Both the position numbers and the translations under genes were made by a program. Below are positions 9,894 to 51,727 of a stretch of DNA of 64,000 bases, one piece after another; positions within the stretch are counted from its first letter, which is position 1; every line of letters begins with the position of its first letter. This stretch comes from Sphingorhabdus sp. 109. GTDB taxonomy: Bacteria; Pseudomonadota; Alphaproteobacteria; Sphingomonadales; Sphingomonadaceae. The notes below the pieces were generated by a model. The model was not told where the DNA came from. It worked only from the letters and a program-made list of their open reading frames with translations, and made no database searches. The DNA is taken from assembly GCF_902506555.1 (NCBI RefSeq), contig NZ_LR732707.1:334001-398000 (forward strand), given 5' to 3'.

Positions 9894-10550
9894 ATGGAGC
9901 GCCAAGAGAATTCCAGCATGAAAAAGCAGATCGAGATTTCCCGATCCGATCTGCCAACGGCCTCGGTCATGGGGCTGATCGAAAAAAGTCCGATTGCCTC
10001 GGTGGTCAGCAATCCGCGTTTGCCAGACAACCCGCTTGTGGCGGTCAACGATGCGTTCGTGGAACTGACCGGCTATGACCGGGATTTCATTATCGGTCGA
10101 AACTGCCGCTTTCTGTCGGGGGAAGAAACGAAACCATGGCTGACCGAGGAGATCCGGCGTGGTGTGCGGCAGCAAAAGTCCGTGCTGGTTGAAATACTCA
10201 ATTACAAGAAAGACGGTACGCCGTTCCAGAATGCGGTGCTGGTCGCGCCGCTGTTTGATGAAGAAGGCGAACTGGAATATTTTCTGGGATCGCAGGTGGA
10301 AATCGATGCCGATGTCCCTACCTTGGCAAAAGCACGCCGGATGCGAGCGGTCGAGATTGTCAAAGGCCTGTCAAAGCGGCAGCGGGAAGTGCTTCAGTTC
10401 ATTGCCAAGGGCCTGCTCAACAAGCAGATCGCCCACGAGTTGAACCTGAGCGAGCGGACTGTGAAAATGCATCGGTCGATCCTGATGAAACGGCTCGACG
10501 TACCGAGTGCGGCGGACATGGTCCGGCTGGCTGTAGAAGCGGGAATGTAG
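9894..10550 (+). CDS. LOV blue-light receptor with LuxR-type HTH (EL222-like)
   Basis: A 218-residue one-component photoreceptor regulator. Residues about 25-145 form a LOV/PAS domain with the flavin-binding signature GRNCRFLSG; Cys71 is the residue that forms the light-driven adduct with FMN in LOV proteins. Residues about 155-218 are a LuxR/GerE helix-turn-helix ([34 protein letters not shown]). Size and domain order match EL222 of Erythrobacter litoralis, which dimerises and binds DNA in blue light. Two starts are possible, 9894 and 9918; neither has a strong ribosome site. It stands alone behind putA and is followed by a hairpin and a structured inverted-repeat element. Its target genes are not known. 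Confidence 0.92.
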
Positions 10551-10560
10551 GTGGATGGAG

Positions 10561-10580
10561 ATACGGTCCAAGGGCCGTAT
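10561..10580 (+). terminator. Hairpin after the LOV-HTH gene
   Basis: ATACGGTC (10561-10568) pairs with GGCCGTAT (10573-10580), one G-U pair included, across a CAAG loop, 10 bases after the stop codon. Only CGATTTC follows, so termination is likely to be weak. Confidence 0.35.
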
Positions 10581-10614
10581 CGATTTCAAAGCTGGCACAA
10601 TCTATTCCTAACTA

Positions 10615-10718
10615 TGCATCGCGGGCTGAAATCTTTATTTCCCTTCGGGTCGCAAATCATTTTTGGATAACAGTTCTCCCTCCTCCTAGTTATCCGAAGA
10701 TATTCAGCCCGCGATGCA
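10615..10718 (+). ncRNA. Candidate structured RNA: three-way junction with CU-rich loop
   Basis: TGCATCGCGGGCTGAA (10615-10630) is perfectly repeated inverted at 10703-10718. The stem continues by five more pairs (ATCTT 10631-10635 with AAGAT 10697-10701) past one bulged A. Inside are two hairpins. One spans 10637-10657: ATTT/AAAT ends and a C-UUCG-G tetraloop at 10643-10648. The other has stem GGATAAC (10665-10671) with GTTATCC (10689-10695) and a 17-base loop containing CTCCCTCCTCCT (10676-10687). That loop is complementary to Shine-Dalgarno sequences, as in the CCUCCUCCC-loop sRNAs of Alphaproteobacteria (SuhB/alpha-r14, CcsR 'cuckoo' RNAs). The strand is inferred from the UUCG and CU-rich loops. 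There is no clear terminator. It lies between two convergent genes, so a bidirectional termination structure is the main alternative. Confidence 0.5.
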
Positions 10719-10725
10719 GACTGGT

Positions 10726-11691
10726 TTAAAATTGGTCGGCGATTGCAATCATCTTGGTGAGCCGCTTTGGCGCGACTTGGCGCCAGCTAGCGTACAGCCG
10801 ATCGGAAATATGGTCCCAGTCGGTGCGGCCCGTATCCAGCCGAATGGCGATCCAGCCGGATTTTCCGTAGAATTTGGGTATATAATACAGGTCGGGGTCG
10901 GCGTCGATCAGCGCGGCCTGTTCGTCCAGCCCGGTGGTCTTGACGAGCAGAGCAATACTGGCTTCTCCATGATGGCTCTGCGCAAAATAGGCGAAATATT
11001 TCCCTGTCGTTTTGCTGCCCACGCGCCAGCCCGGGGCGCCGAAGCTGGGGCGTTCGTGGGTTTCTGCAAGTGCCAGCGCCCGTTGACGTACCTGTCCAAG
11101 AATCCAGTCAGGATCCGCTTCGCGAGTGACATATTTGGCCAGGGTGGAGGGGTAGAGCTGATGTTCCGCGATCAGTATCCGGCTGGCCAGACTGTCGGCA
11201 TCATCATCGGGCAGAATGGCAACGTCCGTTTGCGCCAGAATGGGACCATCATCCAGTTCGGCAGTGACCAGATGGACGCTGCATCCAGCGACAACGTCGC
11301 CCGCATCAATCGCGCGCTGATAAGTGTCGAGACCCTTGTACTTGGGCAGCAGGCTGGGATGAATGTTGAGCATATGATCTGCCCATTTCCTGACAAAACC
11401 GTCGCTCAGAATGCGCATATAGCCGGCTAGTACCACATATTCGGCGCCGGATCGGACGATGGCATCGTGCATGATTATATCATGGGCCTCGCGCGTCAGT
11501 CCCTTGTGCGAATGGGCGAAGGTTGCGATGCTTTCTGCTTCTGCCAGTTTCAGGCCCGGCGCCTTCAGATCATTGGACGCTACCAGAACGATCTCAAAGG
11601 GACAGTCGGGTGATTTTGCGGCATAAACCATCGCCGCCATATTCGACCCGCGCCCGGAAAGCAGTATAGCGATTTTGGCTTTGTCAGCCAT
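10726..11691 (-). CDS. purN: GAR transformylase PurN fused to a YjbR-like domain
   Basis: Phosphoribosylglycinamide formyltransferase, which adds a formyl group from 10-formyl-THF to GAR in purine synthesis. Residues about 1-200 carry the PurN motifs [18 protein letters not shown], and the catalytic [18 protein letters not shown] with Asn, His and Asp in place. PurN is normally about 200-215 residues; this protein has 321. The extra C-terminus (about 205-321: [40 protein letters not shown]) resembles the MmcQ/YjbR double-wing DNA-binding-like family. The start at 11691 is chosen because its ATG overlaps the purM stop codon by 8 bases, giving translational coupling. An in-frame start at 11712 is the alternative. 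The gene ends 8 bases from the inverted-repeat element. Confidence 0.93.
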
Positions 11692-12790
11692 TGTGCGTGG
11701 CGGTCCAGTCATCCGTAGCTGACCATATGCCGCGCGCAGCGCTTACCGTACAGCCTCTGGTGCCGGTGCGAACGTCGCCAATTTTGTGGACTGTCTCGCC
11801 CGCGGCTTCCAGGTCAGATGTAATGGAAGGAACTTCTTCGGGGGAAACCGCCAGCACCATTCCGATTCCGCAATTGAATGTCCGCGCCATTTCTTCCGGT
11901 TCGATATTGCCTTGTGCCTGCAGAAACGCCATCAAGCGGGGCTGATCCCAGTTCGAAGCATTGACGTGGGCGTGCGTACCATCGGGCAACACGCGAGGAA
12001 TATTTTCCAGTAATCCGCCGCCGGTGATATGGGCAAGCGCCTTGATCCGGCCGGACTGCATCAGTGGCAGCAGCGACTTCACATAGATTCGGGTGGGCGC
12101 AATCAAAGCCTCAATCAGCAATATGTCTGGATTGAATAGGGCGGGGCGGTCCAATTTCCAGCCTTTGTCGGCAGCCAGACGCCGGACCAGAGAAAATCCG
12201 TTGGAATGCACGCCCGAGGATTCGAGACCGAGAAGCACATCACCCGGCGCGATCGTCATTCCGGTCACGGCCTTTTCGCGTTCCACCGCGCCGACGCAGA
12301 AGCCAGCAAGATCATAGTCACCGTCAGCATACATGCCCGGCATTTCCGCGGTCTCTCCGCCGATCAAGGCGCAGCCGGACATTTTGCAGCCCTCGGCGAT
12401 GCCCGCCACAACCCGTTCGGCAATGCCGTTCTCGAGCTTGCCGGTAGCAAAATAGTCGAGGAAAAACAGGGGCTCTGCTCCCTGCACGATCAGATCATTG
12501 ACGCACATGGCAACAAGGTCAATGCCGACCGTGTCATGACGGTTATAATCGATCGCGAGTTTGAGTTTCGTACCGACGCCGTCATTGGCCGCGACCAGCA
12601 ACGGATCCTGATAGCCTGCCGCTTTCAGATCAAAAAATCCGCCGAACCCGCCTAGTTCGGCGTTTGCACCCGCACGTGCAGTGGCTTTTGCCAGCGGTGC
12701 GATTGCTTTGATCAGGGCATTGCCCGCTTCGATAGACACACCGGCTTTCGCATAGGTGTAAGAATCCGGCTCATTTTGCTTTTCACTCAT
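11684..12790 (-). CDS. purM: Phosphoribosylformylglycinamidine cyclo-ligase (AIR synthetase)
   Basis: Closes the imidazole ring in purine synthesis, making AIR from FGAM with ATP. The 368-residue protein has the usual family length. Typical segments include [51 protein letters not shown] and [11 protein letters not shown]. It precedes purN and overlaps it by 8 bases. No good ribosome site is seen before the start at 12790. It is divergent from the gene at 12853 with only 62 bases between starts, so the two promoters must be close or overlapping. Confidence 0.96.
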
Positions 12791-50803: not shown

Positions 50804-51727
50804 ATGGCTATTACAGCAGCAGCAGTGAAAGAACTGCGCGAACGCACCGGTGCGGGCATGATGGATTGCAAAAAAGCACTGAACGAAACCAATGGCGACG
50901 TGGAAGCAGCGGTTGACCTGTTGCGGACCAAGGGCCTTGCCGCGGCGCAGAAAAAATCGAGCCGCACGGCTGCCGAAGGTCTTGTCGGCGTCGCCGTCGA
51001 AGGCACTCGCGGCGTTGCCGTCGAAGTGAACAGCGAAACCGACTTCGTTGCGAAAAACGATCAGTTTCAGGATTTTGTCGCCAATGTGACGCAGGTCGCT
51101 CTTGGCATGGACAGCGACGACGTGGAAGCGCTGTCGGCTTCGGCTTACCCTGCCGGCGGCACCGTTCAGGAAGTTCTGACCAACAATATCGCTACCATTG
51201 GCGAAAATCAGGCCATTCGCCGGATGAAGACCGTTGCGGTCTCCAGCGGTCTTGTCGTTCCCTATATCCACAACGCCGTCACCCCTTCGATGGGCAAGAT
51301 CGGTGTTCTGGTTGCCTTGGAAAGCACCGCAGGCGCGGATGTTCTGGAGCCCCTCGGCAAGCAGATCGCCATGCACATCGCTGCGGCATTCCCGCTGGCG
51401 CTGAACGCCGACGGTCTGGATCAGGAGATGCTTGAGCGTGAACGCGCTATCGCTGCTGAAAAGGCTGCTGAATCGGGCAAGCCGGAAAATATCGTCGAGA
51501 AAATGGTCGATGGCGCGATGGCAAAATTTGCCAAGGAAAATGCGCTGCTCAGCCAGATTTTCGTGATGGACAACAAGACACCTGTTGCCCAGGTTGTCGA
51601 GCAGGCCGGCAAAGATGCCGGTGCGGAAATCAAGCTTACGGAATATGTCCGTTTCCAGCTTGGCGAAGGCATCGAGAAGAAAGAAGATGATTTCGCCGCA
51701 GAGGTAGCCGCCGCAGTTGCCGGCTAA
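50804..51727 (+). CDS. tsf: Elongation factor Ts
   Basis: Nucleotide exchange factor for EF-Tu. The 307-residue protein has the N-terminal UBA-like region ([24 protein letters not shown]) and the EF-Tu-contacting motif [10 protein letters not shown]. Core domains carry [31 protein letters not shown] precedes the ATG at 50804. It ends before a strong terminator. Confidence 0.97.

Follow-up and report, generated by a model that had tools for sequence, protein, structure and literature searches.

What a blue-light photoreceptor of the EL222 type controls in its own genome is the question raised by this locus. EL222 is used as an optogenetic tool, and the passages found in the open-licence literature searched do not name its natural target gene. 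The window, meaning the whole stretch of 64,000 nucleotides of Sphingorhabdus sp. 109 DNA analyzed here, contains a gene for a LOV-HTH transcription factor of this type and a convergent neighbor, separated by a gap of 175 nt. Two inverted repeats lie in the gap: a short palindrome (10561-10580) and a long repeat (10615-10630/10703-10718) enclosing inner hairpins. The two genes are as follows.

9894..10550, plus strand: gene for an EL222-type LOV-HTH transcription factor, 218 aa (matches to EL222 structures; Pfam GerE and PAS_9).
10726..11712, minus strand: convergent gene for a PurN-type formyltransferase with a fused C-terminal YjbR domain (Pfam PF00551 and PF04237).

The closest solved relatives of the LOV-HTH protein are the EL222 structures 8a5r (E 4.8e-80) and 3p7n (E 9e-80), and it is 62% identical to EL222 from Erythrobacter litoralis HTCC2594 over the PDB fragment. 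A Pfam scan finds GerE and PAS_9. Proteins of the EL222 type combine a LOV domain containing the motif GXNCRFL, described as a LOV criterion in the relevant part of PMC4428443, with a C-terminal LuxR/GerE HTH, and the LOV-HTH protein shows both. GRNCRFL and TVKMHR are common to the two proteins in the alignment, in which the photoactive cysteine motif and the HTH stretch of EL222 are present.

The long repeat and the sequence that it encloses are predicted to form a small RNA with the following parts.

10614..10728, plus strand: predicted small RNA of about 105-115 nt (fold z, covariation and covariance model R1; ends predicted).
10615..10630, plus strand: 5' arm of the closing stem P1 (13 modelled pairs, 6 of them with two-sided changes; pairing in 96.0% of cells).
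10703..10718, plus strand: 3' arm of P1, complement of the 5' arm (T-rich tail behind it in a number of relatives).
10641..10649, plus strand: small CCC..GGG hairpin, CCCUUCGGG (UUCG in the window only; the loop varies).
10659..10701, plus strand: inner hairpin P3, which presents the loop (fold; two-sided changes in 9/9 modelled pairs, pairing in 92.4% of cells).
10676..10687, plus strand: anti-Shine-Dalgarno-like loop CTCCCTCCTCCT, 12 nt (TCCCTCC invariant in the 27 genus loci).

A preliminary description of this region had claimed a structure beyond chance, which is confirmed by folding. The fold of 10561-10718 has a z of -6.2 on the plus strand and -4.5 on the minus strand, and that of 10614-10722 on the plus strand has a z of -7.1, with none of 200 shuffles reaching the observed value in each case. 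The 21-bp stem with one bulge proposed at that time holds in part. The arms 10615-10630 and 10703-10718 are 100% complementary over 16 bp, while the further 5 bp possible past the bulge (10631-10635 with 10697-10701) are only one of two alternative pairings and are used in the minus-strand fold. In the plus-strand optimum, the 3' bases 10697-10701 lengthen the inner hairpin, not the outer stem. P3 then pairs 10659-10673 with 10686-10701 in the fold of 10614-10722 and leaves CTCCCTCCTCCT unpaired except for its last two bases. The core of this loop, CUCCCUCCUCCU, matches CCUCCUCCC in 8 of 9 positions.

Conservation was followed in 27 distinct loci of the genus (L001, L008, L010, L015, and L021-L043), collected by a LOV protein search and a DNA search. 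L009, L011-L014, and L016-L019 were left out because they coincide in position with some of L021-L030, and L020 was left out for lack of a LOV match. In the resulting alignment, A1, standard pairs occupy 94.5% of 550 pair cells, and 15 of the 22 modelled pairs are changed on both sides. In 500 shuffles, neither the observed pair coverage nor the two-sided pair number nor the covariation score was ever reached, and shifting the partner by 1-3 columns lowers the pair coverage to 31-49%. The proposal of an RNA with compensatory changes in relatives is therefore borne out. The loop stretch TCCCTCC is invariant in 27/27 loci. Both inner hairpins of the preliminary description, the UUCG hairpin and the anti-Shine-Dalgarno hairpin, are found in the window, but the small hairpin is not general among relatives: its UUCG is replaced there by CCCAATTCGGG, CCCATTCAGGG, and others, and 11 of the 27 loci have no letters at this place in the alignment. 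This indicates that the three-way junction is not the conserved core.

The strand of the RNA can be read from the wobble pairs. The stem cells of 25 distinct rows contain 75 G-U combinations versus 7 A-C, counted as totals over de-duplicated rows only. Since G-U on the plus strand would appear as A-C on the minus strand, this ratio points to selection acting on a plus-strand RNA. A functional RNA on the minus strand, which does fold (z -4.5), is disfavored by the same ratio and by the covariance model R1, built from A1 with the copy in the window among its members: in the own genome (G000), the minus strand scores 29.7 bits versus 94 bits for the plus strand from which the model was built. No conserved minus-strand frame is seen by eye either, and a minus-strand RNA is extremely improbable. 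The longest frames per strand differ in length and sequence across the 27 loci, with no conserved reading frame apparent by eye on either strand; a small ORF was rejected for this reason. A REP- or MITE-like repeat, for which many genome copies would have spoken, was likewise rejected, as the own genome contains one full copy of the element. A conserved structured RNA on the plus strand behind the LOV-HTH gene is well supported by these alignments.

R1 further shows how closely the RNA is tied to the photoreceptor gene. The copy in the window scores 94 bits, its sequence being itself part of the model, and strong matches occur in 30/32 genomes of the genus, each of them beside a LOV gene. Together with the invariant TCCCTCC, this upholds the earlier suggestion of an anti-Shine-Dalgarno-type loop tied to a light regulator. 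In the two genomes without an R1 match, G002 (80% complete, 490 contigs) and G017 (97% complete, 240 contigs), no LOV-HTH gene was found by protein search at E <= 1e-30. Both are draft assemblies and the gene and the RNA are neighbors, and a single lost contig piece could therefore explain both absences. In genome G031, R1 also matches weakly (26 bits) at a second place, distant from the LOV gene (C1:1667623-1667684, minus strand). Among 396 genomes of the order, strict filters leave strong R1 matches in the genus only (6/396); outside the genus, the 396 genomes yield four weak matches (E 0.015-0.1), with no LOV match in these loci. A plasmid search with the locus returned seven records, none covering 80% of the query.

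The convergent gene is a less constant companion. A PurN-type gene adjoins the RNA in 29/30 genus loci, and in 26 of the 27 distinct loci, 170-206 nt separate the ends of the LOV and PurN-type matches, the remaining one (L035) having no PurN match. In L158 (genome G008), the LOV gene and the RNA are kept, and a purN match is absent. These loci bear on the reading of the element as nothing more than a bidirectional terminator, or a barrier to transcription, between convergent genes, with no function in trans. The convergent setting would suit such a barrier, as would the T-rich tails seen behind the stem in several relatives (ACTTTTTTT, ACCCTTTTTC, and GAATTTTTC). This reading is disfavored by the persistence of the element at G008 without a purN match and, likewise, behind LOV genes of other genera that show no purN match, by the invariant loop, the covariation of the inner hairpin, and the operator upstream, and by the enclosed stretch of 72 nt, which is unlike a terminator. 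A mere terminator or barrier is therefore very improbable. The 3' tail in the window is poor in T (AGACTGGTTT), and a terminator scan found none behind the element there. A clear terminator is seen by eye only in L102, downstream of the stem.

The short palindrome in front of the RNA, together with the sequence that follows it, provides the second half of the argument.

10561..10580, no strand: probable operator, palindrome ATACGGTCCAAGGGCCGTAT with the core GGTCCAAGGGCC at 10565-10576 (12/12 to the EL222 consensus; fixed spacing).
10602..10607, plus strand: probable -10 element CTATTC (predicted RNA start at about 10614-10616).

The span 10561..10718 of the preliminary description already held this palindrome, the most informative element of the locus, without naming it. 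The EL222 consensus RGNCYWWRGNCY consists of two RGNCY half-sites with two A/T pairs between them, as given in parts of PMC10521638 and PMC4428443, both citing Rivera-Cancel 2012. The core of the palindrome, GGTCC-AA-GGGCC, agrees with it at 12/12 positions and contains both half-sites. From the base composition, about 277 sites of the 12-bp consensus are expected in a genome of this size; the match alone is therefore weak, and the weight lies on position, conservation, and spacing. A second 12/12 site at 50925-50936 of the window, inside a gene judged by eye to be elongation factor Ts-like, is taken as chance. Across the 27 genus loci, the core scores 12/12 in 7, 11/12 in 18, and 9/12 in 2 (L034 and L038). 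The outer dyad is kept in both of the latter, with changes on both sides in L038 (TACGTC/GACGTA). In the 3.6-Mb own genome, the outer dyad TACGG-N8-CCGTA occurs once, compared to six occurrences of the reversed control pattern. The distance from the dyad center to the start of P1 is 44-46 nt in 27/27 genus loci, while that from the LOV stop codon to the dyad varies from 6 to 18 nt.

The alignment for the -10 region covers 59 loci that pass the operator filter (26 of the genus, 18 of the GCATCG type described below, and 15 others). At offsets +31 to +33 from the operator center, C, T, and A each reach at least 70% of the 26 genus loci, and CTA is found at the same offsets in L102, L103, L107, and L125; the -10-like element is poorly conserved in GCATCG-type loci. 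The alphaproteobacterial -10 element is given as CTATAT in the relevant part of PMC10746234. The place and sequence of the CTA agree with such an element, which puts the operator center at about -44 relative to the start predicted from it, just upstream of the core promoter. In a simple scan for sigma-70 promoters, the region gave no hit. Typical LuxR-type activators bind a palindrome centered about 42-44 bp upstream of the start, combined with a poor -35 element, and recruit the polymerase from about this position. The palindrome at 10561-10580 is the probable operator of the LOV-HTH protein, and this predicted operator, like the RNA, is well supported.

This arrangement weighs against two other readings of the palindrome. 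The preliminary description had considered a 3'-UTR-derived RNA, which would be cut from the LOV-HTH mRNA, with the palindrome merely its hairpin or terminator. The RNA does lie close behind the stop codon on the same strand, and the palindrome can be folded as RNA. An origin of this kind is nevertheless disfavored and quite unlikely, as an EL222-type operator and a -10-like element stand before the stem, outside the LOV coding sequence: the EL222 core is kept, its distance to the CTAnnn and the stem is fixed while the distance to the stop codon varies, no U-run follows the palindrome in the window, and the same type of site precedes unrelated stems in other genera. A terminator hairpin of the LOV mRNA is disfavored by the same spacing, fixed to the RNA and free to the stop codon. 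According to the other reading, the LOV-HTH protein represses the RNA, which would then be made in the dark. EL222 represses from a site between the -35 and -10 elements, as described in part of PMC9614035. The site here is centered at about -44, upstream of the core promoter, and the lack of a sigma-70 promoter with a good -35 element in the scan fits an activator-dependent promoter; a dark-on RNA is decidedly unlikely. Activation of the RNA remains the preferred reading.

The relationship of the RNA to known families was assessed with Rfam, as the preliminary description had proposed. No gathering-level match was obtained in the window or in five related loci, and for the element, examined over 10540-10740, RF00519 is absent at E <= 10, with only noise up to that value. 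The own SuhB RNA (RF00519) lies outside the window, at G000:C2:1827703-1827779 on the minus strand, with 51.6 bits, and SuhB exceeds the cutoff (covariance score of at least 41 bits) in 32/32 genus genomes, including the two without LOV gene and RNA. The proposed membership in SuhB/alpha-r14 was rejected on the basis of the unmatched RF00519 and the separate SuhB in 32/32 genomes, and tandem hairpins with the exact sequence CCUCCUCCC are absent. It follows that the RNA behind the LOV gene is an additional small RNA, and with SuhB included, two or more anti-Shine-Dalgarno-type small RNAs seem to be encoded in these genomes.

Loops of the CCUCCUCCC type are a feature of the CcsR1-4 RNAs from Rhodobacter sphaeroides as well. 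These small RNAs have a role in stress defense; an RpoHI/RpoHII promoter drives them together with a DUF1127 gene, and RNase E processes them (part of PMC10253847). The RNA described here has an LOV-HTH operator instead, and a DUF1127 neighbor is absent among the three genes scanned, the neighbors being LOV-HTH and PurN-YjbR. The alpha-r14 RNA NfeR1 and the cuckoo RNAs share the anti-Shine-Dalgarno hairpin loop and an activator site upstream (LsrB for NfeR1; part of PMC10746234). Their CCUCCUCCC loops, termed anti-Shine-Dalgarno, are carried by at least three hairpins each (parts of PMC10746234 and PMC3927594), in contrast to the single loop CUCCCUCCUCCU enclosed by P1 in this RNA. SuhB is likewise a small RNA of Sphingomonadales, known from Sphingopyxis (granuli) to target the thnR 5' UTR (part of PMC6563040), and differs in that RF00519 does not match the element. 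EL222 itself resembles the LOV-HTH protein down to the operator core (12/12). Natural fragments bound by EL222 are published, the passages found name no natural target gene, and the table on EL222 in the review PMC4844311 gives, in the part seen, only "binding to DNA consensus sequences"; for the LOV-HTH protein, the likely target is the adjoining small RNA gene. No report linking a small RNA to EL222 or to LOV-HTH genes was found in the open-licence literature searched.

These observations are probably best explained by a two-gene module, in which the illuminated LOV-HTH dimer activates the adjoining small RNA and the anti-Shine-Dalgarno loop represses translation. Here, the LOV-HTH protein, an EL222 orthologue, would dimerize in blue light and bind the palindrome just past its own stop codon. 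With its LuxR/GerE-type HTH at this palindrome, about 44 bp upstream of the predicted RNA start, it would recruit RNA polymerase, switching on an RNA of roughly 110 nt on the same strand as the LOV gene. In this RNA, the long closing stem would enclose the inner hairpin that exposes CUCCCUCCUCCU, which would pair with strong Shine-Dalgarno sequences (AGGAGG) and lower the translation of the mRNAs carrying them. For EL222, the sequence of blue light, dimerization, and DNA binding is described in parts of PMC4844311 and PMC4428443, and an EL222 operator upstream of the -35 element activates transcription in Escherichia coli (pBLind; part of PMC9614035). From these precedents and the shared cysteine motif and HTH, we infer that light turns on synthesis of the RNA. 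That the protein binds the palindrome, that it activates and does not repress, that the response depends on light in vivo, and that the loop represses translation are likewise inferred.

By analogy, translational repression is the most likely action of the loop. The sequence CCUCCU is the core of the 16S rRNA anti-Shine-Dalgarno, and the loop in the window contains it. The alternative is a C/U-rich loop acting as bait for an RNA-binding protein or the ribosome, rather than as an antisense to mRNAs. Such a bait would accommodate the C/U stretches outside the genus (CTTCCTCCATCCCA and TTCCTTCCCCCTC), which vary more than a fixed antisense would, and the outcome of the own-genome searches with the full complement and with GGAGGAG, neither of which gave a convincing mRNA target. 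The complement of the whole loop, GGAGGAGGGA, recurs at four other places in the own genome. None is closely followed by an ATG; at one (L133), a GTG comes 3 nt after the complement, within a longer mechanical ORF, and one place is tRNA-like by eye. GGAGGAG-N3-9-ATG has 26 occurrences, some at plausible starts, but its reversed control has 14, which makes these sites only leads. One possible lead of this kind is L201 (G000:C2, about 1843490), a regulator judged by eye to be MerR/SoxR-like, with GGAGGAG close before its ATG. The CCUCCU core and the precedent of alphaproteobacterial small RNAs with such loops, described as acting on mRNAs (part of PMC10746234), make the bait unlikely, if a reading of some weight, and leave an action on mRNAs preferred.

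Beyond the genus, 57 LOV-HTH loci of named records (L044-L100) show how far the arrangement extends. A site of 11/12 or better lies within 70 nt behind the stop codon in 20/57 and a 12/12 site in 9/57. Control rates at 12/12 are 0.16% of 4937 same-locus windows and 0.49% of shuffles; at 11/12, the controls are not low (5.3% of windows and 8.7% of shuffles). In the other 37/57 loci, the 70 nt behind the stop codon contain nothing at 11/12 or above, and the arrangement is not universal.

One group of loci, with Erythrobacter-type genomes among its members, has a different closing stem, GCATCG(T/C)AG(C/T)CGG.... A site of at least 10/12 precedes this stem by 43-44 nt in 15/15 loci, and one of at least 11/12 does so in 13/15; L064 and L066, with GCA(T/C)CG strings 133 and 213 nt behind the stop codon, are not among the 15. 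An independent helix search, with duplicates removed by sequence and 105 loci kept, puts a site of 11/12 or better 40-45 nt ahead of the helix in 18/21 GCATCG-type loci, compared to 0-3 per other 6-nt bin. For the collection of GCATCG-type loci, L108, L112-L114, and L118 were dropped as duplicates, L061 was missed by the search pattern, and L127, L129, and L130 were found but left out of alignment A2. The stem covaries (6/14 pairs changed on both sides, 0/500 shuffles). Its interior differs: the 5' half holds the inner hairpin, and stretches rich in C/U, CTTCCTCCATCCCA among them, lie in the loop and next to it; outside the genus, these stretches vary (CTTCCTCCATCCCA and TTCCTTCCCCCTC). The GCATCG-type model R2 gives 25 rows in 19/396 genomes. 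All 11 strong matches lie 63-95 nt behind an EL222 homologue, a linkage with some circularity, as loci of this kind went into the model. The other 14 rows comprise three on the reverse strand of the same places, three 48-nt matches, and eight with E 0.015-0.09. The 48-nt matches (E 0.001-0.0024, 30-32 bits) lie away from LOV genes, at G063:C1:1322155-1322202 (L192), G403:C7:68119-68166, and G421:C2:210147-210194. At L192 there is a plain hairpin; its stem GCACCGCAGCCG is similar to the closing stem of the light-linked RNA, but the interior of that RNA is missing. In the 56 loci with other stems, the peak at 40-45 nt is modest (11 sites at 10/12 or better versus 0-6 elsewhere, and 4 at 11/12 or better versus 0-3 elsewhere), which leaves the case for them suggestive only.

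The closest relatives of EL222 itself present a mixed picture. L102 (91% identical to EL222) and L103 (88%), which belong to these 56 loci, show a 12/12 site behind the stop codon, a CTA at +31, and a stem enclosing TTTCCTCCTGTCCCTCCCG. L104 (81%) has no operator of this kind and no matching stem behind the gene, as is also the case for L064, and the module may have been lost or moved in these two. Two 12/12 sites within about 30 nt behind the LOV stop codon are found in L103, where they overlap by eye, and in L049, where they are in tandem; these pairs are possibly cooperative operators. The natural EL222 binding fragment "peak B" is published (part of PMC10521638) and finds no match above 13 of 21 bases around L102 and L103. 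The fragment thus stems from elsewhere, EL222 is unlikely to have a single site, and it probably has other sites too.

For the family as a whole, the conserved natural output of EL222-type proteins across much of Sphingomonadales may be one adjacent small RNA, not a protein operon: a relay from photon to RNA that would lower the translation of mRNAs with strong Shine-Dalgarno sequences, its stems and interior evolving fast while operator and spacing stay fixed. The peak B result lowers the probability of this single-output reading, which is put forward tentatively, at slightly less than even confidence. The operator and small RNA behind the orthologues make the question of the natural target of EL222 testable, and the locus supplies native promoters of the EL222 type, with their spacing from operator to -10 element. 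If true, the module would join a photoreceptor and a small RNA as a dedicated pair.
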